Of a stretch of 64,000 bases of DNA, positions 8,208 to 61,678 are shown piece after piece. The stretch spans positions 186,001 through 250,000 of the forward strand of contig NZ_CP110395.1 in the NCBI RefSeq assembly GCF_029910215.1. Reading direction: 5' to 3'. Numbering within the stretch: position 1 is the first letter of the stretch; every line of letters starts with the position of its first letter. Made by a program: the position numbers and the translations under genes. The DNA comes from Paraburkholderia sp. D15. Lineage in GTDB: Bacteria > Pseudomonadota > Gammaproteobacteria > Burkholderiales > Burkholderiaceae. Below the pieces are notes generated by a model. It had not been told where the DNA came from and searched no databases. It was given only the letters and a program-made list of their open reading frames with translations.

Positions 8208-9197
8208 TCACGATTGCAGCGCGCGGCGTTCGCCGCATAGCGCGTCGGCCAGCATCGCGTCCCACGCGAAGCGCGCCCGCACCAGCGTGCCGCGCGGCTG
8301 CGCATGCGCGGCCGATGCCGCGCCGCGGGATCCGCCCGATGCGCCCGAGGTGGCCGTGCGCCGGGCGCTGACGCGCAAGGTGCCGTCGAAGGCCGCGCAG
8401 CGCGCCTGCATGCCGCTCAGGCCAAAGTGGCCGCGCCGGTTGCGGGCCTTGCGCGTCAGGCCGATGCCGTCGTCGGCGACGATCACGGTGAGATGCCGCC
8501 GGCTGGTCTCGATCCGCACGTCCGCCGATTCGGCGCGCGCGTGCTTGGCGATGTTGTTCAGCGCTTCCTGGGCGACGCGGAAGACTGCCAGCGCCGCGTC
8601 GGCGGGCAGGCGGGTCAGGCGGACGTCGGCCGCGCAGACGAAGCTGGTGCGCAACTGCGTGCGTGCGGCGAAGTCGCCGGTCCAGTGCGCGAGCGCGCCG
8701 ACAATGCCGCTTTCCAGCGACGGCGCATGCAATTCGGCGACCGCCTGGCGGCTCGCCGCGCACACGGCGTCGAGCGAACGGTTCGCGACCGCGAGGGCGG
8801 CCGCGCATTGCGGCGGCGCGTCGGCGGGCAGCCAGGTTTCGACGCCGGCGAGCGCGAAGCGCGTCGCGGTCAGCTCGGCGCCCACGCCGTCATGCAGTTC
8901 ACGCGCGATGTGCCGGCACGCGGCCTCCTGCGCCTGCACCAGTTCCGCCGACAGCTCGCGGACCCGCGCGCGCAGCCGCGCCAGTTCGCGCCCGGCGGCG
9001 GTTTCGTCGCGACCGGCCCTAAGCGCCGAAGCCGCGCCGGCCGCGGTTATCGATCCTGCCGGGACGGTCGCGACAGTCGCCAAGCCCGCCGGCGACGCAG
9101 CCGATGCACCCGACGCACCCAATGCGCCCGCACCGTCACGAACGGCCGACGAAGGATGATGTGCGGTAAACGGGACGACGACAGTCGACATATCCAT
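8208..9197 (-). CDS. HisKA_3-type sensor histidine kinase without an obvious sensor
   Basis: A 329-residue kinase with a NarX/DegS-type dimerisation-phosphorylation domain (ARELHDGVGAELT, phospho-His about residue 102) and an HATPase domain (QEALNNIAKHA, DDGIGL, GLSGMQ). The start at 9197 (MDMSTVVV) follows a GAGAGG ribosome site. The first 65 residues are Ala/Gly/Ser-rich low complexity, then a coiled-coil-like stretch rich in Arg, Glu and Leu; there are no transmembrane segments and no PAS, GAF or HAMP domain that I can see. The signal may therefore come through a partner protein or the cytoplasmic N terminus. It sits directly upstream of its response regulator. Confidence 0.9.
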   Translation of the reverse strand: MDMSTVVVPFTAHHPSSAVRDGAGALGASGASAASPAGLATVATVPAGSITAAGAASALRAGRDETAAGRELARLRARVRELSAELVQAQEAACRHIARELHDGVGAELTATRFALAGVETWLPADAPPQCAAALAVANRSLDAVCAASRQAVAELHAPSLESGIVGALAHWTGDFAARTQLRTSFVCAADVRLTRLPADAALAVFRVAQEALNNIAKHARAESADVRIETSRRHLTVIVADDGIGLTRKARNRRGHFGLSGMQARCAAFDGTLRVSARRTATSGASGGSRGAASAAHAQPRGTLVRARFAWDAMLADALCGERRALQS

Positions 9198-9579
9198 GAC
9201 TTTCCCTCTCAGGAAGCGGTGTGGACAGCGAAGCGGGTGCGCAGCCGAGGCGCGAAGACGAAAGAACGCATACGGGTCTCCAGCCTCCAGGTGAACCGCC
9301 ACGCATACGGCGTGACAGGCGATTTGCTACGGTGCAACGTAACGAAATTTACATTCAGTAACATGACGGACGGACATCGGCAGGGCGGTTCCATTCGTCT
9401 GATCTTGCGCCGCGATCATATCTCAAAAGTAGAAAAAATGCAGTTGCACCAAGGGTTAGCGCCTACATTTCACGCAATGGTTGATGTTATGCAATATGAC
9501 AAAGCGGCGAATTTTGTAGGAATAATACCGACGCCAAATGTCAAATCAACGGCGTCATTTTGTAACGGGCAATAAAAAA
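9198..9579. other. AT-richer intergenic region upstream of the kinase
   Basis: The stretch from about 9340 to 9560 is clearly richer in A and T than the flanking genes and should hold the promoter of the kinase-regulator operon on the minus strand. No clear operator or RNA gene is recognisable. Confidence 0.45.
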
Positions 9580-45645: not shown

Positions 45646-45721
<76 letters not shown>

Positions 45722-51347: not shown

Positions 51348-52061
51348 TTACGCAAATTGCTGCCGGTGTGCGTTGTAGTGCTCGCGATCTTCCTTCGACA
51401 TGGCGCGAATCCGGGCTTGACCCATGTGGCGTTCCGGCGGCCGGTCGATGCCTTGGTCCTTGAGCGTTCGATGATCGACGCGCGTCGTGTGACCGTACTT
51501 CTCCAGCGCAGCGTTTTGCAGGTCAGCGCATTTCTTTCGCGTCGCAATCAGTTCGTCGCGGAGTTCCATCCGGTTCTTCCCGCCGCTGCTCTTTTTGCGG
51601 CCACCGTGTTCCGGATGCGTCGGGTTGTAGCGTCGGAATGTCTGCTCGGGTGATCTCTCGATACCATCATCTTCACGATCGGAATACATCAGGTGCATGT
51701 GTGTGTTCGTGCCGTGTCCGAGCGCAGCTTTCGGCGCATGGATCGCATATTGAAACGGCTTGTTGCCCACCAGTCCGGATACCAGTTGATTGACCAACTC
51801 TTGTTGCTGATCGTGCGTAAGTTCGTCGGGCAGAGCGATTTCGTGTTCGCGGTATACGGCGCCATTGGCGCGTTCGTATTTGTCGCCAGTCCTCCAGAAC
51901 TCAGATGCATCATGTCGTGCCCAGTTCGGCATGTTGCCGTGACCGGAGGCGATCAGATCTTCCTTGCGGTTGGTGTGCTTGCCCTTTCTCGAGATGTATG
52001 CGCTGTGATCCGTTGCCGAACCCTTCTTGCCGCTCTTGATCGTGTGGTGAAAGCTTGCCAT
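51348..52061 (-). CDS. MobA/MobL-type (MobQ) relaxase
   Basis: A 237-residue relaxase domain. The N terminus HHTIKSGKKGSATDHSAYISR carries the likely catalytic Tyr region, YREHEIALPDELTHDQQQELV is a typical second block, and GTNTHMHLMYSDRE is the metal-binding HxH motif. The C terminus has DHRTLKDQGIDRPPERHMG, characteristic of MobA/MobL proteins. It nicks oriT and pilots the strand during mobilisation by a helper conjugation system. The primase or helicase extension of longer relaxases is absent. No type IV secretion genes are in view. Confidence 0.88.
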   Translation of the reverse strand: MASFHHTIKSGKKGSATDHSAYISRKGKHTNRKEDLIASGHGNMPNWARHDASEFWRTGDKYERANGAVYREHEIALPDELTHDQQQELVNQLVSGLVGNKPFQYAIHAPKAALGHGTNTHMHLMYSDREDDGIERSPEQTFRRYNPTHPEHGGRKKSSGGKNRMELRDELIATRKKCADLQNAALEKYGHTTRVDHRTLKDQGIDRPPERHMGQARIRAMSKEDREHYNAHRQQFA

Positions 52062-52568: not shown

Positions 52569-53408
52569 ATGGCATTGCCTTCTTTCGATAGTGGGTGGAA
52601 AGACAGCGGGCGGACCAAGCCCCGCATTTATGTGCTAGAGATTCGGGATTGCGAGAAGCTCGGAAGCGAACTCGTTGCATGGCTGCTTATTGAGCGGCAA
52701 GAAAACTATCGACGGGATGCCTACGATGATTCCATTTGCGAGGCATCGATCCGTCTGTCTTACCAACGCGTTTTGCCGAAGTATTCTCGCCATGCAGATA
52801 GCAAGGGCTACTTCTCTGGAGGATACTCAAGAGGTTTCGGCGATGGCTCAGTGATTTCATTGACCTCGGAGTCCACTGCCAAGGGGGCTGTGTTTCTCGA
52901 TCTTCCTGGCCTGAAAGGGCATCGGATCGGCACCTACCTCATGAACGAGATAGTTACCTGGGCGAAGCAGTGGGCCGATGCGCGGGTCCTTTCTGTTGAG
53001 TTGCTTGCGGGTCAAGCTGACGAAGAAAACAAGTCGAGGCGCAATCGCTTTTATGAGCAGTTTGGCCTTGTATTCGATTACCGTGATCCGGACCGGCGTG
53101 AAGGACTGTCCAAGCCGATGTTGGCTGCTGAGTTGATCAAAGTCGACACCTGGAAACAGAACATTTGCGAGCGAGATGTCCGCGAGTACCTTGGCGAGGT
53201 TTTATACGAGCGGGAGCGGGATGGGTTTGAACTCTTGCAGCGTGGACGAGCCAACAAGGATCTTTTGGATGAGATCAAGCGGGCTGAGGCGCGTCCTATG
53301 CGCTGGGCATTGCGGCGCTTGCTGTGGCGATTTATCCCATCATTCGGCCAAGTAGCGATACTGCTGGGTCTTGTCGCCGTTGTGTGGTTAGGCCTCAAAT
53401 CAAGATAG
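52569..53408 (+). CDS. GNAT-fold protein with C-terminal membrane anchor
   Basis: A 279-residue protein. The central region resembles an acetyltransferase: KGAVFLDLPGLKGHRIGTYLMNEIVTWAKQW (with an R/GxxG/A-like HRIGTY acetyl-CoA loop) and NRFYEQFGLVFDYRDPD near the C end of the fold. A charged helical segment (ICERDVREYLGEVLYERERDGFELLQRG) follows, then a single terminal hydrophobic helix QVAILLGLVAVVWLGLKSR, so it is probably a tail-anchored inner-membrane protein. Canonical GNAT toxins are shorter and soluble. It lies downstream of the relaxase region and directly follows a 52-codon ORF. Acetyl acceptor unknown. Confidence 0.68.
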   Translation: MALPSFDSGWKDSGRTKPRIYVLEIRDCEKLGSELVAWLLIERQENYRRDAYDDSICEASIRLSYQRVLPKYSRHADSKGYFSGGYSRGFGDGSVISLTSESTAKGAVFLDLPGLKGHRIGTYLMNEIVTWAKQWADARVLSVELLAGQADEENKSRRNRFYEQFGLVFDYRDPDRREGLSKPMLAAELIKVDTWKQNICERDVREYLGEVLYERERDGFELLQRGRANKDLLDEIKRAEARPMRWALRRLLWRFIPSFGQVAILLGLVAVVWLGLKSR

Positions 53409-54061
53409 GCAATCAAGAGGACAGGCGAAAACGTGGCGATCCTGCAAGGTGGGCCGAGACATATGGCCGTGAAGAAATCCAAAGAGTAAAGTCGGGCCGG
53501 CGTGGCCAACGTGCATGCCATCGCAACGGTAGCGAAGGGGCAGCATCCGGCTGCGTTCCAGCAATAACGGCCGCCTGTACTGGTGTCTTTTCGACACAAT
53601 GACAGCCTGAACGAGCGATCACCCGGTGAAGCGCAGTCTCATCGCGGGTGGTTTGTAGTGGGCGAGAGGATTTCGGGCGTGAAGGTGCTGGTGGTTTGCG
53701 GGAGCGATCTACTAAACGATCAGCTAGATAGCTGACGCGATAGTTCATGAGATCCCGTATTGTGGTCGTTCGATGTTCAGCGGATTTTACTCGGGAGTGT
53801 GCTTTGACCTTCGTAAAGCGCGGCAAAGGCGCTACGCTAGAATGTGGGCGGTGCTATTGCAAGAAATGAAACTGAGTGGCGCCGATGAGTAGCGTACGCC
53901 GGCAAAGCCAACGACGAATAGGGCGGCTTCCTGGCTGTCAGTCATGAGCGGCGTAGCAGAACGAAGAAACCGCGGTCGTTCTGGCACGCCTTCCGACGGG
54001 GCGCTATCATCGGGGCTTTGACCCCATGCCGCGACTCGCGAAGTTAGAAGAGCCAAACCTG
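53409..54061. other. Gene-free region with a 20-base repeat
   Basis: About 650 bp without a convincing gene. It includes a minus-strand frame from 53748 that begins MNYRVSY, the same start as a small gene at 62120, but its continuation is Pro/Arg/Ser-rich and not gene-like. It should hold the promoter of the phosphatase-kinase operon near its right end, although no clear boxes are seen. Confidence 0.45.
53733..53752. repeat. 20-base direct repeat, copy 1
   Basis: TGACGCGATAGTTCATGAGA is repeated exactly at 62105-62124. On the minus strand both copies read TCTCATGAACTATCGCGTCA and would start a protein MNYRV(S/T)Y. Confidence 0.8.
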
Positions 54062-55228
54062 ATGTCGACCCAACTCCAAACGCCGGCCGCTAAATTGACG
54101 ACCTGGTTCATGAGACGCACTGCACCCAGCGCCGTGCGTCGCGTGGCGCCGCTGAACGCGGCCGTAGCGAGCGACGTCGGTGTTGTGCGCGCGGAGAATC
54201 AGGATCGAGTTGCCCTTGTGCGGGGAAGCGACCGTAGCGGGGCACCTTTTATCCTGGCCGTATTGGCAGATGGCATCGGCGGCATGAGGCATGGCGCGGA
54301 ATGTGCGTCGCTAACCTTGGCGACCTTCATTGACACGGTGATTTCCGAGGCGCAGCACACCGTCGAACCTAAGGACTGGCTACGTCGGGCCTCGCTACGG
54401 GCGAATCGAGTCGTGCATACGCTCCAAGGGGGAGATGGTGGTTCCACTCTGGCGGCCATTCTACTTGCCAAGGGCCATCGAGCCGTGTGGCTCAGTATCG
54501 GCGATAGCAGGGTTTATCACGTAGCCGAAGGAAAGATGACGCAGCTTTCCCGGGATGACACGCTTGATGGCCAGCTCGGAAAGCCGATCGACGGCGGAAG
54601 GAGGTCCGAGCTGCTCCAGTTTGTAGGCGTTGGCGATGCGCTTGAGCCGCACATCGAGTTCGTCCCTTGGGATCTATCTGGCACGCTACTTCTCACTACC
54701 GACGGTGTACATTTCATCGATGCCGATTACCTGGGTAAGGTGGCGCACTTTGCCGCAGACATAGGGGTATGTGCTCGCCGCTTCATGGATCTTGCCAAGA
54801 TGTTGGGCGGGCCTGATAACGCCTCAGTGGTTGCTCTCAGCGTAGACGCGCTTTCTGCAGACCCTGGTGCTCAGGTCGAGTCGGCCTTTGAAGTTTGGGA
54901 TCCTTTTGGTGATCTTTGCGTGATGTTTGATCGTGGTCGCAGCTACCGGACAAACGGACCGTCGTCAATTTCAGCAAACCTTAAAGCGGGAGCACCGGAA
55001 TCTAGTCCCCAGGATACCTCGGCTGCGGGCAACCCGGAGGCAGAGGGCGAGCTACCAATGGAGGAGCGTTCCGTCGGCACTGCGGCCAAGGGCAAGCCAT
55101 CTAGGCAGAAAAGCGGAAGCCGCCGCAAGGCTAAGGTCAAAGGCGTCAAGATTGAAGGTGGCCCCGAGGACGGCCATGAGGGCGAAGCTCCGCAATTGTC
55201 CATCGAGTTTCCACACAAGAAGCCCTAA
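54062..55228 (+). CDS. PP2C-family protein phosphatase
   Basis: A 388-residue metal-dependent Ser/Thr phosphatase. The core motifs are complete: GVVRAENQDRVAL, LADGIGGMRHGAE (metal-binding Asp), GGSTLAAILL, SIGDSRVYH, LTTDGVHFID and GGPDNASVVAL. The C-terminal hundred residues are a disordered, basic tail with RQKSGSRRKAKVKG, perhaps for docking to its kinases. ATG 54062 (MSTQLQTP) is preferred; ATG 54026 is in frame upstream. The stop lies two bases before the next kinase gene, so this is the first gene of a phosphatase-kinase-kinase operon, as in many bacterial reversible phosphorylation modules. Confidence 0.92.
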   Translation: MSTQLQTPAAKLTTWFMRRTAPSAVRRVAPLNAAVASDVGVVRAENQDRVALVRGSDRSGAPFILAVLADGIGGMRHGAECASLTLATFIDTVISEAQHTVEPKDWLRRASLRANRVVHTLQGGDGGSTLAAILLAKGHRAVWLSIGDSRVYHVAEGKMTQLSRDDTLDGQLGKPIDGGRRSELLQFVGVGDALEPHIEFVPWDLSGTLLLTTDGVHFIDADYLGKVAHFAADIGVCARRFMDLAKMLGGPDNASVVALSVDALSADPGAQVESAFEVWDPFGDLCVMFDRGRSYRTNGPSSISANLKAGAPESSPQDTSAAGNPEAEGELPMEERSVGTAAKGKPSRQKSGSRRKAKVKGVKIEGGPEDGHEGEAPQLSIEFPHKKP

Positions 55229-55230
55229 TC

Positions 55231-56292
55231 ATGCGCGCTATCCCCGACCGCTATGTTTCCTCCGGCCATGCGATGTCAGGCGGGATGGGTAGCGTGATTG
55301 TCTGCCAGGACACAATCCTGGAGCGCCCTGTGGCCATCAAGTTCATAAGCAGCGCCACTCACAAGCGGCGTATGGACGACGAAGTTTCAGCGCTTCTCAA
55401 ACTGCGTTCGAAACATGTCGTTCAGGTATACGACGTGTTACAAGCTGATGTCGACGAGATCGGAATTGTCCAGGAATTCATCGACGGCAAAGATCTCTTC
55501 CAATCCCATCAGATTCCCGCGACCGCTACCGACTACTACAGGCAGCTCTGGCAAATCTCCGCGGGCATATCGGACATCCACGATCTTGGGGTGATCCACC
55601 GCGACATCAAGCCGAACAACATGAAGACGGACCCTGAAGGGGTGATCAAGATCTTCGATTTTGGCTTGGCACGAGACGATGGTCCCAGTGCGAAGACCAA
55701 GAGCTTCGTCGGTACGAGAGGCTTTGCCGCTCCTGAACTCTACGCGAATCCCTTTAGCTTTACCAAAGCGGTGGATACGTATGCATTCGGCGCGACTGCT
55801 GTGTATTTGGCTACCGGCGGTTTGCCGACCGATATGCTAAAGCAGCCGCCTATTACTGGTTTGGTTAGCCATTTGGGCTCGCTTCCGTTCATGATCGCGG
55901 ACGAGATCACATGGCTTCTCGATGCATGCATCGCGCCTGAGCCGGCGAAGCGTCCGCCGATGCGAGAGGTGCGCGATGCGCTGGCCCGGCACATTCTCTT
56001 TGATAGGCATAGAGCCTTGGTGGTCTACCAAGGCAAGGCGTCGGTCCTTGGTGCCGACAATCGGTCTGTCAGCCTGAGCTTCGGCGATATTGCGAAGATC
56101 GCCATCCGCTACGACGGGCTCGCGTTCGTCGTCGACAGTGTCTCTGGCGAAGTTCAGATCAACAACCTGGTTGTGGTCGCCGGCTCCACGCTGCCCGGCG
56201 CGTGTGTGGTGGCTTTGGGTGGCAATCACCGTCGCAGCAACGAGCGGCGCTTCATTACTTTTGACATCTCTCATCCGGAGATTGTGCTATGA
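55231..56292 (+). CDS. Ser/Thr protein kinase with FHA-like C-terminal domain
   Basis: A 353-residue Hanks-type kinase with all key elements: glycine loop SGGMGSV, VAIKF (Lys), DDEVSALLKL (helix-C Glu), HRDIKPNNM, DFGLARDD and GTRGFAAPE. After residue 250 comes a beta-rich segment LAFVVDSVSGEVQINNLVVVAGSTLPGACVVALGG then RRFITFDIS, which has the strand pattern of a forkhead-associated phosphothreonine-binding domain, although the usual SxxH is not clear. No transmembrane segment, so it is cytoplasmic. Its stop overlaps the next kinase start by ATGA. Confidence 0.88.
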   Translation: MRAIPDRYVSSGHAMSGGMGSVIVCQDTILERPVAIKFISSATHKRRMDDEVSALLKLRSKHVVQVYDVLQADVDEIGIVQEFIDGKDLFQSHQIPATATDYYRQLWQISAGISDIHDLGVIHRDIKPNNMKTDPEGVIKIFDFGLARDDGPSAKTKSFVGTRGFAAPELYANPFSFTKAVDTYAFGATAVYLATGGLPTDMLKQPPITGLVSHLGSLPFMIADEITWLLDACIAPEPAKRPPMREVRDALARHILFDRHRALVVYQGKASVLGADNRSVSLSFGDIAKIAIRYDGLAFVVDSVSGEVQINNLVVVAGSTLPGACVVALGGNHRRSNERRFITFDISHPEIVL

Positions 56293-57365
56293 GCGGTCCA
56301 CTCTCAGCAGGAGACGTCATAGGTGGGCGCTACCAGATCGAGCGCTACATAGACGAAGGCGGCATGCAGTTCGTGTACGCGGCTAAGGATCAATTGTCCA
56401 GCCGGATCGTCGCCCTCAAGACGCCCAAGAACAAGTCCGCTATCAAGCGTTTCCGCCGTAGTGCTGTGGTAGCAGCAAAGGTCAATCACCCCAACGTAGC
56501 CAAGACGCTTGACTACGTAAGGGAGGGCGAGAGCCGCTATCTCATCGAGGAACTCATCGTCGGCTCCGATCTGAGCAAAGCACTTCTGCGCAAGACCGTG
56601 TTCCTAGACCCCTACCTCGTAGCGAAAGTCTTTCACCATATGGCCAAAGGGTTGGCGGCTGCTCATCACGCGGGCGTGATTCACCGCGACCTTAAACCTA
56701 CCAACGTTATGGTTGTGGGTGGTTACTCGCTGAGCGAACTCAAGATCACCGACTTCGGGATTGCCAAGATGGCCGAGGAGGAGCTCGCCGAGGCGGCTGA
56801 AGGCGGAGACCAGACCCTCACAACCTCACAGACGGCTGTGGGTGCGCTCCCTTACATGGCCCCGGAGGCCATCGATACGCCAAAGGAGGTTACTCAGAAG
56901 GCGGACGTATGGTCGCTGGGAGCGATGATGTTTCATCTGCTCACGGGGCAGCAACCCTTCGGTTCAGGTTTAAAGGCGGTGCAGAAAATCCTAGCTGCGG
57001 CGCAACCGGATGTTCCAGTGTTCGTGGTGCGTAACCCGCAGTTCGAGCCGCTTGCGCGTGAGCTTCTCGATATGACTTTTGCCTGTCTGCGGAAGAACCC
57101 GGCCGAGCGGCCCACCGCCGACGATCTGGTTCGGCGCTGCGGACTTCTCTGCTATACCGTCACGCAGCGGGGAGAGGGAGTGGTCAGGCGAGTCGACTAC
57201 GACAGCTATGGCTTCATCAACAGCGAAGGACGTGACGTGTTCTTCCACATGGACAGCGTCTTCGGGCCGCCGCCGAAGCTCGCCACGGGCGACCGCGTAA
57301 TCTTCTCCGCCTACGCGGGCGGTGGCTCGCCACGCGCCTACCCAGTTTTGAAAATGATTTCCTGA
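56289..57365 (+). CDS. Ser/Thr protein kinase fused to a cold-shock-like domain
   Basis: A 358-residue protein. The kinase domain has ALKTPK (Lys 44), HRDLKPTN (Asp 134) and DFGIAKM, but the helix-C glutamate position holds Ser 58 (FRRSAVVAAKVNHPN), and the glycine loop is DEGGMQFVY. The last 67 residues look like a cold-shock/OB fold: GEGVVRRVDYDSYGFINSEG then RDVFFHMDSVFG and LATGDRVIFSAY, matching the RNP1- and RNP2-like aromatic motifs that bind single-stranded nucleic acid. A kinase linked to a nucleic-acid-binding domain suggests that RNA or ssDNA controls, or is targeted by, phosphorylation. It overlaps the preceding kinase gene by four bases. Confidence 0.88.
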   Translation: MSGPLSAGDVIGGRYQIERYIDEGGMQFVYAAKDQLSSRIVALKTPKNKSAIKRFRRSAVVAAKVNHPNVAKTLDYVREGESRYLIEELIVGSDLSKALLRKTVFLDPYLVAKVFHHMAKGLAAAHHAGVIHRDLKPTNVMVVGGYSLSELKITDFGIAKMAEEELAEAAEGGDQTLTTSQTAVGALPYMAPEAIDTPKEVTQKADVWSLGAMMFHLLTGQQPFGSGLKAVQKILAAAQPDVPVFVVRNPQFEPLARELLDMTFACLRKNPAERPTADDLVRRCGLLCYTVTQRGEGVVRRVDYDSYGFINSEGRDVFFHMDSVFGPPPKLATGDRVIFSAYAGGGSPRAYPVLKMIS

Positions 57366-58173: not shown

Positions 58174-58770
58174 ATGAATCTGCCGCTTCCGGAAGTGTTT
58201 CATCCCGCTCTTCGTTCCGATTGCCTTGGTGTTATCGCGGACATCCTGATCGACGAGCATTTCACGACGTTGACTGACCTTCAAAGCGAGTACGACGATG
58301 GGTATTCCCGTGGCACGACCCGTTTTGCCCGTCAGAAGAACCGACTCAAGTCGGTTGCGTTGTCAGGCCAATATGAATGGTTGCAGTTGCGGCACGCGGG
58401 TAATGACCTCATTTTTACGATCGACGGCATTCCGTGTCGTTTTGCAACGGACGATCCAGCTAATCCGACCAAACCCGCGGTTCTCGAAGCGACGCCCATT
58501 CAGCAGTCGTTCTTCGATGAAGTGGAGAGCGGTGTCCCATGCAAATTCTGTTTCATTCTCGATGGCGGTTACGCTGAGTCGGACGATCCGCGCGTGGTCT
58601 TTGTTGGCGAGGATTTGTATGGCGCTGTGAAATGCCGGTGGACCTCGGATGGCATGAAGACACTTCATGCCGTTTCCGCCAATACGCCGCCGGCGAAAGA
58701 CGTTGGCAAGGCGCCGGTTGGCCCCAAGCGCATCGAATCCGACAAGACCTCAACGCCTGAAGCGCCATGA
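58174..58770 (+). CDS. Hypothetical protein coupled to the XRE-ImmA gene
   Basis: A 198-residue soluble protein. It starts MNLPLPEVFHPALRSD and has an alpha/beta core: WLQLRHAGNDLIFTIDGIPCRFATDD and FCFILDGGYAESDDPRVVFVGEDLYGAVKC, followed by a disordered tail. I do not recognise a family; strand-rich blocks with DGIPCRF and PRVVFVG hint at a small effector or toxin-like fold. Its stop overlaps the next gene's ATG by four bases, so the two are made together. It could be the target or substrate of the downstream ImmA/IrrE protease. Confidence 0.7.
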   Translation: MNLPLPEVFHPALRSDCLGVIADILIDEHFTTLTDLQSEYDDGYSRGTTRFARQKNRLKSVALSGQYEWLQLRHAGNDLIFTIDGIPCRFATDDPANPTKPAVLEATPIQQSFFDEVESGVPCKFCFILDGGYAESDDPRVVFVGEDLYGAVKCRWTSDGMKTLHAVSANTPPAKDVGKAPVGPKRIESDKTSTPEAP

Positions 58771-59918
58771 CCTTTATTGGTTCAAATCTGCGTACCGCAC
58801 GTTTGTTTCATGGCTTGTCGCAGCAGGAACTGGGTGATCAGATCGGTTGCTCGAAACAATTTCTCAGTCGCCTAGAATCGGGCGTTGATGTGCCGGCGTC
58901 GACGCTCGTCACCCGGCTTTGTGATCGGCTCGCGGTCTTGCCGGATTTCTTCGTCGAGCCGGATCCCATGCCTATCGCAGATGAGCAGTGCCATTTCCGA
59001 AAGCAACTGACGACCAAGGTGGCTCTCCATCAAGGCGCGCGTGCGCGCGGCGAGTTTTTGAAGCGCATGATCAACGTGATGGACGAGCACTTGGAGTTGC
59101 CTCGGTACGATTTTGAGGAAGGCGACGCGTCGTCCGCGGAGGCGATCGAGCAGGCAGCAGAGCGTGCGCGCGAACATTGGGGCTTAGGCTTGGGACCCAT
59201 CCAGAACATGACGCATATTGCGGAAAACGCAGGCGCCGTCGTTATGCCGATTAATGGATTGGCTCCCGAGATCGACGCGATTTCGTTTGCGACGCGCCGG
59301 CCGGTTATTGCGATGAATTCGGATGGTCGATCATCGTGTCGTGCCCGTTTCGGAATCGCGCATGAGATCGGCCACTTCTGCTTGCATATCGGCGTGCAAA
59401 CGGGCGACAAGGTGACCGAATCCCAGGCGAATCGGTTCGCAAGCGCCTTTTTGATGCCGCGCCGATATTTTGCGGTGGAGTGTCGGGCAGGGCTGCGCGG
59501 TTCACGTCTGAACTGGTCGGGGCTGGCGGATATTAAGGCCCGCTGGGGCGTGTCGAAGGCAGCAACCCTCTATCGTGGACGGCAGCTCGGCGTGTTTTCC
59601 GATGAGCAATATCGAAGCGGTGTGATCGGCCTGACGCGACGCGGCGAGGCACGAGGCGAGTTTGAAGATAAAGACATGCCGCTTGAGCTGCCGGACCTGA
59701 TCGTAGACAGCATTCAGGTGTTACGCGAAGCGTTTGGCATTTCTCGCATCGCGTTGGCTCAGGAAATGAAAGTGCAAACGTCGTTGCTGGATGAATTGCT
59801 ATCGGCCCGCTTTGATATGGGGGCGTTTGCGACTAAGCCAGATAACGTTCTTTCCATGTCAGCGGAACGCCGCGCGCGAGGTGGCGCAACTGGCGTCAGC
59901 ACGAGGCGTGGGCAATAG
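58767..59918 (+). CDS. XRE-family regulator with ImmA/IrrE metalloprotease domain
   Basis: A 383-residue two-domain protein. The N-terminal XRE helix-turn-helix is LRTARLFHGLSQQELGDQIGCSKQFLSRLESG. The central ImmA/IrrE (DUF955) domain has the zinc motif AHEIGHFCLH and downstream QANRFASAFLMPRRYF. The C-terminal third is helical with a second weak helix-turn-helix-like block FGISRIALAQEMKVQTSLL. Such fusions switch operons by cleaving a repressor or partner, as in ICE and phage control, toxin-antitoxin and stress modules. The paired operators upstream of the operon suggest autoregulation. Confidence 0.9.
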   Translation: MTFIGSNLRTARLFHGLSQQELGDQIGCSKQFLSRLESGVDVPASTLVTRLCDRLAVLPDFFVEPDPMPIADEQCHFRKQLTTKVALHQGARARGEFLKRMINVMDEHLELPRYDFEEGDASSAEAIEQAAERAREHWGLGLGPIQNMTHIAENAGAVVMPINGLAPEIDAISFATRRPVIAMNSDGRSSCRARFGIAHEIGHFCLHIGVQTGDKVTESQANRFASAFLMPRRYFAVECRAGLRGSRLNWSGLADIKARWGVSKAATLYRGRQLGVFSDEQYRSGVIGLTRRGEARGEFEDKDMPLELPDLIVDSIQVLREAFGISRIALAQEMKVQTSLLDELLSARFDMGAFATKPDNVLSMSAERRARGGATGVSTRRGQ

Positions 59919-60017: not shown

Positions 60018-60131
60018 CGTTCGATTGATTGAATGAGACGGCGAGGTTAGCGCAATAGGATGTTGGTAGTAACAGCCAACGTACAGCGAGCCGCACAAGA
60101 AGTAGCCGCGCATTTGCCAACGCTATCAACA

Positions 60132-60875
60132 ATGCACAATCTCGACAAGATCCTCGATCATTTAGAAAAATGCAAACCCTACGCGCCGCAGAACCCAGTG
60201 GTAGTGAGAAGGATCACATTCACCGGATGGGCGCTTTTCCTGATTGGAGCCGCTGCATTGTTTGCAGTAAAAATCACCGTAACGACTCGTCCGCTGAGCG
60301 GGCTAAACCGCGCCGTCGCGGATGGCGCCGTTATTGGCGTCGTGCTGGGATCGGCGTTGCTCTTTCTTGCATTCATCGCCCAGTTTGTCGTAGGGGTGCA
60401 GACTACGCTTCGAGAGAGAGCAGAGTCGAACCCCAGGACCACGGCTCAACGGCGGCTCGAGGTCGACGAAAATAACGTGCGATTTCTGCTCGACCAACCC
60501 GACAGATCCTTGGAATACGCTCAGTGCTATCTCAGACAAATGAATTCCCGCACAGGCGAATGGATCGCTCACGTATTCGGAAGCGCGGCACCTGTTCTGC
60601 CTCTCCTGGCTGTTTTGCTCGCCGTCTCCAGGGAACTGGGTGTAACTCACTGGCTCGAGGATGCGTTTGCACAGGGTCACCCGGCTAATCCGCTGGTCCT
60701 CCGTTTGATCTTCTTTGCGATTGCCCTCGCCGTTTTGACGGTTGCCACTGCTTTTGGTTTGGCAGCAGAACAGCGGAAGAATAGTTACAGGCTTGGACTG
60801 ATCGAGATGGCGATAACGCTGAAGAACATGATGGACAAACCGGTTCGCGGGCGCAAGAGAGGCGGCGCTCGCTGA
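60132..60875 (+). CDS. Four-helix membrane protein, accessory island
   Basis: A 247-residue inner-membrane protein. Two helices lie near the N terminus (ITFTGWALFLIGAAALFAVK and AVIGVVLGSALLFLAFIAQFVVG), then a soluble loop of about 70 residues (RAESNPRTTAQRRLEVDENNVRFLLDQ), then two more helices (VLPLLAVLLAVSREL and LIFFAIALAVLTVATAFGLAA). The start could be ATG 60060 instead, adding 24 residues. I do not recognise a family. It precedes the Abi-alpha gene in the same direction; membrane partners are common for abortive-infection effectors, so a joint role is possible. Confidence 0.68.
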   Translation: MHNLDKILDHLEKCKPYAPQNPVVVRRITFTGWALFLIGAAALFAVKITVTTRPLSGLNRAVADGAVIGVVLGSALLFLAFIAQFVVGVQTTLRERAESNPRTTAQRRLEVDENNVRFLLDQPDRSLEYAQCYLRQMNSRTGEWIAHVFGSAAPVLPLLAVLLAVSRELGVTHWLEDAFAQGHPANPLVLRLIFFAIALAVLTVATAFGLAAEQRKNSYRLGLIEMAITLKNMMDKPVRGRKRGGAR

Positions 60876-60979
60876 GTACACGCGTGTACCGGTTTCAATT
60901 TCCATCAGTTGTTCGCGACGACGTGAACACGGCCACTCATGCTAGCCTTTTCAGCTTTCCTCTTCTACGGAGCAATACG

Positions 60980-61678
60980 ATGGACCCGAACGCTATAACA
61001 ACAACTACCGAGGCAGCCAAGGCAGTTCAAGAGGTCGCAAAAGCGACGGGGAAGGGAATTGATGCCGCGAGGGAAATGGGTGGCTTTATTGCGAATTATG
61101 TACGAGGGCCGATAGAGCAAGGTCTCGGTATCTTTGACGACAAGCTTCGATACTCTCGGTGGGAGCGGCAACAACGGTTGATGCAGAGGGCAGCGACGTT
61201 TTTGGCAGAGCAGGGACTGAAGGAGCCGCCTAATGGAGTGCCGCTGAAGTTTGCTGTTCCGCTTCTCCAGGCTGCATCGATTGAGGACGATGACGACTTG
61301 CAGGATCTGTGGGCTCATCTATTGGTGAATGCGTCAGTCGAACCTGAAGTTGCGCTGCATAGAGTGTTTGTCAGCATGCTGGAGAACATGTCGAGTTTTG
61401 ATGCCCAAGTGCTCTTTTGCCTCCAGCGTACTAGCAGGGGACCACACGATGCAATTATCACCGCCGAGTTACCGGCGTCTGCCTCAGTGTGGGGCGAAAA
61501 CATGGAACAGCCGCGTACGCAACCGTCTGATGAAGTGCTTTTCTCACTTGGTAATCTGGGACGCCTCGGTGCTATTACCGGGCTTGCGACCGCAGGTGGG
61601 GGAACAGCATGGGTTGCCGTGCACGTAACAATCTTGGGGAAGCGATTGGTCGACGCTTGCTCAGGCGCAGCAACCTGA
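60980..61678 (+). CDS. Abi-alpha (DUF4393-like) protein
   Basis: A 232-residue protein resembling the Abi-alpha / DUF4393 family. Evidence is the N-terminal amphipathic AAKAVQEVAKATGKGIDAAREMG, the conserved GPIEQGLGIFDDKLRYSRWERQQRLM, and the block PLKFAVPLLQAASIEDDDDLQDLWAHLLVNA. The family is named for a proposed abortive-infection role. The C terminus has a hydrophobic segment LGAITGLATAGGGTAWVAVHVTILG. An ATG at 60980 with GGAG upstream is used. It is followed by a strong terminator and preceded by a membrane protein gene. Confidence 0.8.
   Translation: MDPNAITTTTEAAKAVQEVAKATGKGIDAAREMGGFIANYVRGPIEQGLGIFDDKLRYSRWERQQRLMQRAATFLAEQGLKEPPNGVPLKFAVPLLQAASIEDDDDLQDLWAHLLVNASVEPEVALHRVFVSMLENMSSFDAQVLFCLQRTSRGPHDAIITAELPASASVWGENMEQPRTQPSDEVLFSLGNLGRLGAITGLATAGGGTAWVAVHVTILGKRLVDACSGAAT

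Follow-up and report, generated by a model that had tools for sequence, protein, structure and literature searches.

Organization of the operon

This work concerns three adjacent genes of Paraburkholderia sp. D15, found in a 64,000-nucleotide stretch of contig NZ_CP110395.1. We call this whole stretch the window, and positions are counted from its first letter. The genes encode a phosphatase and two protein kinases, and we believe they form a KKP module. The parts of the operon are these:

54062..55228, + strand: pfpC, PP2C-type Ser/Thr phosphatase and predicted antitoxin, 388 aa, 1167 bp (Pfam PP2C_2)
55229..55230, + strand: 2-bp gap between the pfpC stop and the pfkB start (TAA-TC-ATG)
55231..56292, + strand: pfkB (kinase 1), Ser/Thr kinase with a C-terminal all-beta domain, 353 aa, 1062 bp (Pfam Pkinase)
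56289..56292, + strand: ATGA overlap of the pfkB stop and the pfkA start, read from the sequence
56289..57365, + strand: pfkA (kinase 2), Ser/Thr kinase fused to a cold-shock domain (CSD), 358 aa, 1077 bp (Pfam Pkinase and CSD)

An earlier sequence-only reading of this DNA had described the close packing of the genes, and both the gap and the overlap are there when the sequence is read again. The longest open reading frame (ORF) of pfpC begins at 54026, upstream of the start given here. In 21 of 28 such triads (window included) the longest ORFs of PfkB and PfkA share 4 bases where they meet; the remaining 7 have a longest PfkA ORF that begins further upstream. Promoter and terminator scans gave sites no more numerous than in shuffled sequences, and in the 45-64 kb part of the window Rfam matched the tRNA alone.

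Assignment to KKP

KKP (PfkA-PfkB-PfpC) was presented by Guo et al. (2024, Nat Commun 15:7244, PMC11341870) as a tripartite toxin-antitoxin system with anti-phage activity. As their main text defines it, a PP2C gene is followed by two kinase genes, 900-1300 bp each, with an FHA domain on PfkB, a CSD carrying GFI or GFA on PfkA, and the motifs GGM, HRD and DFG. The CSD-fused PfkA is proposed as the hallmark of KKP. More than 1200 clusters are known, over 90% of them in prophages (P2, P4, Mu-like and Pf6-like, for example), and 70 of the 114 non-prophage clusters lie by mobile-element genes (PMC11341870). The kinases are toxic only jointly, PfpC neutralises them, and modules from several hosts give protection from phage; the trigger described is T4 Gp59, which binds the E. 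coli PfpC and modestly lowers its activity (PMC11341870). A 2026 paper (PMC13048266) describes PfpC as interacting with RepG4 and undergoing degradation.

The window operon fits this description closely. The order is PP2C, kinase, kinase on one strand, and gene lengths of 1167, 1062 and 1077 bp fall inside the published range. GGM, HRD and DFG occur in both kinases, the last kinase has a CSD with GFI, the other kinase has a further C-terminal domain of its own, and the phosphatase keeps the PP2C catalytic residues. The setting is mobile DNA as well, as these features indicate:

45646..45721, + strand: tRNA-Ala(cgc), the island integration site (ARAGORN, Rfam tRNA)
45677..45714, + strand: left att repeat, 38 bp, exact, from the 3' part of tRNA-Ala(cgc)
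100638-100675, window-extended numbering, outside the window: right att repeat copy
99105-100457, window-extended numbering, - strand: tyrosine recombinase adjoining the right att repeat

Because of the 38-bp repeats and the adjoining recombinase we take the operon to lie within an integrative island, about 55 kb long. The G+C content, about 0.65 before 46 kb, is 0.52-0.60 beyond it. The earlier suggestion of a mobile island is upheld by the tRNA site, the repeats and the recombinase.

We consider it very probable that the operon is a KKP module, that is a phosphorylation-based tripartite toxin-antitoxin of the abortive phage-defence type, its function being assigned by homology. The sequence-only reading had proposed that a module on mobile DNA provides defence through phosphorylation, and both the homology to tested KKP modules and the island context support it. 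Its further remark that no pairing of such a kinase with a kinase/CSD fusion was known is out of date, since the triad with its CSD was published in 2024 (PMC11341870). A candidate new system is therefore reassigned to a known one. Ordinary in kind, the operon is one more KKP, carried by an integrative island, and three of its structural details merit testing.

Recurrence of the triad

Searches by tblastn, pattern scans and genome searches found 32 places where a PfkA reaches through its tail (window included; some are near-identical), and at 28 of them PfkB and PfpC lie on the same strand. Many of these loci came from viral and plasmid collections, so the proportions of contexts are not natural frequencies. 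The homologous operons found here are not confined to core genomes; most lie on mobile DNA, a share that is biased by the deliberate search of viral and plasmid collections. Triads occur on plasmids as well as in P2-like prophages. P2 structural genes, sought with seven baits taken from L008, flank L008 and L099-L106, which is 9 of the 31 non-window loci within the flanks examined. L013 has a portal fragment in its flank, and L110 has weak baseplate matches (28-29%). Seven plasmid places resembling a full PfkA were taken in (H1, H3, H6-H10), while H2, H4, H5 and a place in a Klebsiella phage record, H86, were left out.

The closest relative, L133, has a PfkB 81% and a PfkA 83% identical to those of the window. 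Type I restriction genes lie on its flanks, and beside it is a recombinase to which that of our island is 92% identical. Thirteen neighbours of the window operon were compared by blastp and tblastn with the flanks examined of the 31 other loci, and none was matched. The blastp was run against ORFs of at least 150 aa. As a positive control in the tblastn comparison, 11 of the 13 found themselves; the remaining pair fall below 150 aa in length. The triad alone is therefore the shared unit in this set.

Within genomes the KKP genes are accessory. Only one of 144 genomes of the genus has them, the window's own; the counts are 5 of 398 for the family, 3 of 399 for the order and 3 of 398 for the phylum, each including the window's genome. 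A sixth family-level match, L007 (E 3.5e-31), was rejected as a generic kinase. At most five candidates were scored per genome in the larger genome draws. The L008 module has a near-identical copy in 14 of 5,426 complete E. coli genomes, and with the L105 module as query 18 E. coli genomes match, 4 of these over 34% of the module only. A profile scan of genome contigs with the PfkA alignment gave at least two KKP (L017, L018) among 80 loci retained. KKP is undercounted in that collection, as generic kinases filled the listing.

Some single loci deserve mention. L017, a filamentous prophage with Zot in a Pseudomonas metagenome-assembled genome, has an intact PfkA 65% identical to that of the window and a PfkB remnant. 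This remnant is just the C-terminal part, PfpC was not detected there, and there is no N at 8601-9400. We regard L017:9282-11068 as a degraded or misassembled KKP, and its prophage context resembles that of Pf6. On the megaplasmid of Paraburkholderia caribensis MBA4, L014:10001-10774 holds a C-terminal PfkA fragment (48%), with partners not detected. On an Agrobacterium plasmid (L010) and a Rhizobium plasmid (L011), at 13.3-16.9 kb, a three-component ABC system (DUF3732) comes after KKP, and two of its proteins are 96-97% identical between the two plasmids.

Points against the assignment and comparison with other systems

Several observations weigh against our assignment. The link to published KKP is one of architecture and context rather than an alignment with a tested KKP sequence; the E. 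coli matches listed include no record under the name 15EC039, the E. coli strain used in the published tests. The window copy lies on an integrative island in tRNA-Ala with no evident prophage, which differs from most published clusters (PMC11341870). Interruptions occur in two of the 28 triads, a split PfpC in L102 and an IS5 between PfpC and PfkB in L012, and 4 of the 32 PfkA places have no detectable full partner set (L017, L014, L137, which runs off its contig, and L140). The PfkB tail of the window family also differs from the published domain description in not being recognisable as FHA by Pfam: PF00498 matched none of 26 full-length PfkB homologues and none of 25 tails at E<=1. Aligned by hhalign with 18 FHA domains, the tail profile scored a probability of 2.4% in the expected register, where a negative control with the cold-shock tail scored 4.4% and a positive control, the two halves of the FHA set, 99.9%. 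Four matches to PDB sequences were found with this profile (E 0.75-1.3), and none is an FHA protein by name.

Other systems resemble the operon in part. The kinase pair described as phosphorylating PfiA in PMC13048266 is the same pair, from Pf6, with PfpC degradation on RepG4 interaction as the activating event, but that work concerns Pf4 regulation in P. aeruginosa. Stk2, as described in PMC11341870, is also a Ser/Thr kinase for phage defence, but it is a single gene without a phosphatase. The model of the Retron Se72 effector (NCBIfam NF038236) matches the cold-shock tail of PfkA at residues 306-354, but at 24.6 bits against a cut-off of 82, and its 62 positions include no kinase domain.

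PADLOC PDC-M21C was tried as an earlier name for KKP and rejected. It matches the window PP2C (E 0.0007) and that of L133 (7e-7) weakly, and the PfpC of L104 not at all at 1e-5. No PDC-M21 kinase was among the families listed, which were the best 25 of 33-35 per kinase.

The three proteins

PfpC of the window scores 37 bits with Pfam PP2C_2 (cut-off 24). It has an N-terminal catalytic domain, a Lys/Arg-rich linker and a C-terminal QLSIEF motif. D48, D70-G71, G147-D148, D214-G215 and D252, which we take to be the catalytic and metal positions of PP2C, are conserved in 25-26 of 26 rows. The tails contain 15-28% Lys/Arg, and 19 of 26 (window included) carry QLx[IVLM]x[FVIL], in 18 cases no more than 20 residues from the end. 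For this tail count L109 (1 of 27) was dropped since it has no GGxDN anchor, and of the split L102 PfpC the first half was excluded. In 1000 shuffles the motif appeared in a mean of 0.44 and a maximum of 4 of 26 tails, a comparison that is descriptive only because the motif was defined after inspecting the tails and the sequences are related. We regard it as a possible docking motif, defined post hoc.

PfkB scores 126.7 bits as a Pkinase (Pfam cut-off 31.7), and K37, the helix-C E51, HRD and DFG are kept in all 25 rows. The sequence-only reading had held that the phosphatase and the first kinase keep their catalytic motifs, and these counts agree. The reading had also called the tail of PfkB FHA-like. 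The all-beta part of this holds, since the tail is modelled with confidence as all-beta (AlphaFold2, mean predicted local distance difference test score, pLDDT, 86.6 for the protein); the FHA part stays unconfirmed, since neither Pfam nor profile comparison recognised it. Whole-chain searches with Foldseek and VIA-align listed 50 matches each and every one was a kinase, so they are uninformative on the tails; that one of them had no FHA entry among the matches listed is not evidence of absence. H260, Y294, G306, V308, N311, N312, R339, S347, P349 and E350 are invariant in the tail. R278, by eye near the Gly-Arg of FHA, is Arg in just 14 of 25 rows, and we saw no SxxH as in FHA, so phosphopeptide binding by this tail is doubtful.

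PfkA scores 162.5 bits against the same Pkinase cut-off. The sequence-only reading had noticed that it lacks the helix-C glutamate, with Ser58 in its place, and this turns out to be a trait of the whole family. Among 29 distinct rows (window included; the L014 fragment and the duplicates L100 and L104 were dropped) the position is Ser in 25, Gly in 4 and never Glu. The third glycine-loop position, Gln27 in the window, is Gln in all 29. The VAIK lysine, HRD and DFG are invariant in these rows. We compared them with 78 generic bacterial kinases from the genome-contig profile scan: all 78 keep the helix-C Glu, and all 78 have Gly, Ala or Ser at the third glycine-loop position. Given the missing glutamate and the Gln in the glycine loop, PfkA may be an atypical kinase that perhaps relies on PfkB for its active shape.

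The C-terminal part of PfkA, residues about 294-355, is the cold-shock domain, with GFI at 308-310. Pfam CSD (PF00313) matches residues 297-355 with 27.8 bits, narrowly over the cut-off of 27. As single sequences, 9 of the 29 full-length homologues match at E<=0.01, and 23 of 29 isolated tails match at E<=0.1. A profile of the 29 tails matches solved cold-shock proteins in the PDB, UNR and CspB among them, with E 4e-9 to 1e-7. AlphaFold2 models the protein with mean pLDDT 88.1 and this part as five strands with block means of 92-96. That kinase 2 ends in a barrel of the cold-shock or oligonucleotide/oligosaccharide-binding type, as had been predicted, is confirmed by the model and the tail profile. 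G308 (28/29), F309 (26/29), F318 (28/29) and H320 (24/29) are largely conserved, and they correspond to residues of the nucleic-acid face of CspB. The position following H320, which is Phe in CspB, is variable across the 29 rows.

A word search of the main text of the KKP paper (PMC11341870) found no mention of glutamate, a helix, a pseudokinase or a salt bridge. The loss of that glutamate and of the third glycine in PfkA, the PfkB tails that Pfam does not recognise as FHA, and the PfpC motif all look unreported in that main text.

Mechanism and alternatives

We infer all function at the window locus, including which phage protein would act as the trigger. On our KKP assignment, PfkB and PfkA would form a hetero-pair that is active only when both are present, and PfpC would hold the kinases and their substrates dephosphorylated. 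A protein of an infecting phage would bind or deplete PfpC, and the freed pair would phosphorylate many essential host proteins, so that growth stops and phage production falls. We suggest, tentatively, that the pair is asymmetric: the atypical PfkA would be activated only via PfkB, with the CSD as a gate controlled by nucleic acid or by a partner, and PfpC would exert its restraint by docking through its C-terminal QLxIxF motif. If this were true there would be a structural reason for the inactivity of either kinase alone, and KKP would be the analogue in bacteria of allosteric kinase heterodimers. The PfkA changes seen throughout the family and the motif in the PfpC tail are testable leads to why the kinases depend on each other and how the phosphatase restrains them.

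A different role is conceivable. The kinases could phosphorylate a host silencer and so control whether the island or co-resident prophages are excised or expressed, with defence as a secondary effect. Phosphorylation of the silencer MvaU of P. aeruginosa is reported for the KKP of Pf6 (PMC11341870), and our operon does lie on an integrative element with a recombinase and att repeats. However, modules of four other prophages, which are not filamentous, protect E. coli (PMC11341870). Other defence-type genes lie in the neighbourhood of the window operon, and only the triad is common to the loci, since the thirteen neighbours found no match in the flanks examined of the 31 other loci. We consider this role rather improbable as the main one.

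The sequence-only reading suggested that the module senses nucleic acid that is foreign or damaged. On that view RNA or single-stranded DNA of this kind would be bound by the cold-shock tail of PfkA, which would switch the kinase on, and the phosphatase would merely reset it. The fold and the profile match of the tail agree with this, and the residues of the presumed nucleic-acid face are partly kept, but the variable position after H320 does not fit, and the task of the CSD may rather be to keep the two kinases together or to locate substrates. GFI is critical for joint toxicity in tested KKPs, an altered GFI leaves minimal protection, and GFA is required in the Shewanella module (PMC11341870). 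On the other hand, both kinases co-expressed without phage are already toxic, so a foreign ligand is unnecessary, and the published trigger, Gp59 of T4, inhibits the phosphatase rather than acting on PfkA (PMC11341870). The published behaviour can be accounted for without nucleic-acid sensing by the CSD; a sensor of the kind proposed is not supported, and we think it unlikely.

That the operon belongs to some other known kinase system (type VI secretion PpkA/PppA, TerY-P, PglW/BREX, MADS MAD6, Stk2 or PD-T4-6) is scarcely credible: kinase 2 does match mad6 (9e-57) and PD-T4-6 (2e-56) in PADLOC, but these matches are confined to the kinase domain, the NCBIfam scores are far below cut-off (MAD6 130.2 bits for kinase 2 and 94.9 against 460; PglW 72.5 and 27.1, for kinases 2 and 1 respectively, against 990), and the 17 other ORFs scanned at 40.6-63.3 kb include no type VI secretion or Ter family and no vWA match such as TerY-P would call for.

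Neighbours on the island

Here the KKP module shares a non-phage integrative island with other genes of defence type. The neighbours with recognisable families are these:

51348-52061: MobA/MobL relaxase, same island
58174-59918: RosmerTA-type pair downstream of the operon, RmrT (E 8e-43) and RmrA (E 1e-122; helix-turn-helix plus M78 peptidase)
60884-61678: Abi_alpha-family protein (Pfam E 2e-17), same island

The Abi_alpha gene is preceded by an ORF of 271 aa, of no known family, at 60060-60875. Upstream of the operon, 52569-53408 gives a weak match to a GNAT acetyltransferase (E 8e-4, under the curated cut-off) and has a C-terminal hydrophobic stretch. Beyond the window, L141:1977-3788 (window-extended 65977-67788) encodes a protein of 604 aa with no Pfam match, whose N-terminus is of an endonuclease-effector type (PADLOC PDC-M68A 5e-25, SAVED-HNH type). 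L141:3833-4720, on the - strand (window-extended 67833-68720), encodes a DUF6602 protein with PD-(D/E)XK and NucC-type PADLOC matches, and an ORF of 207 aa overlaps this gene.

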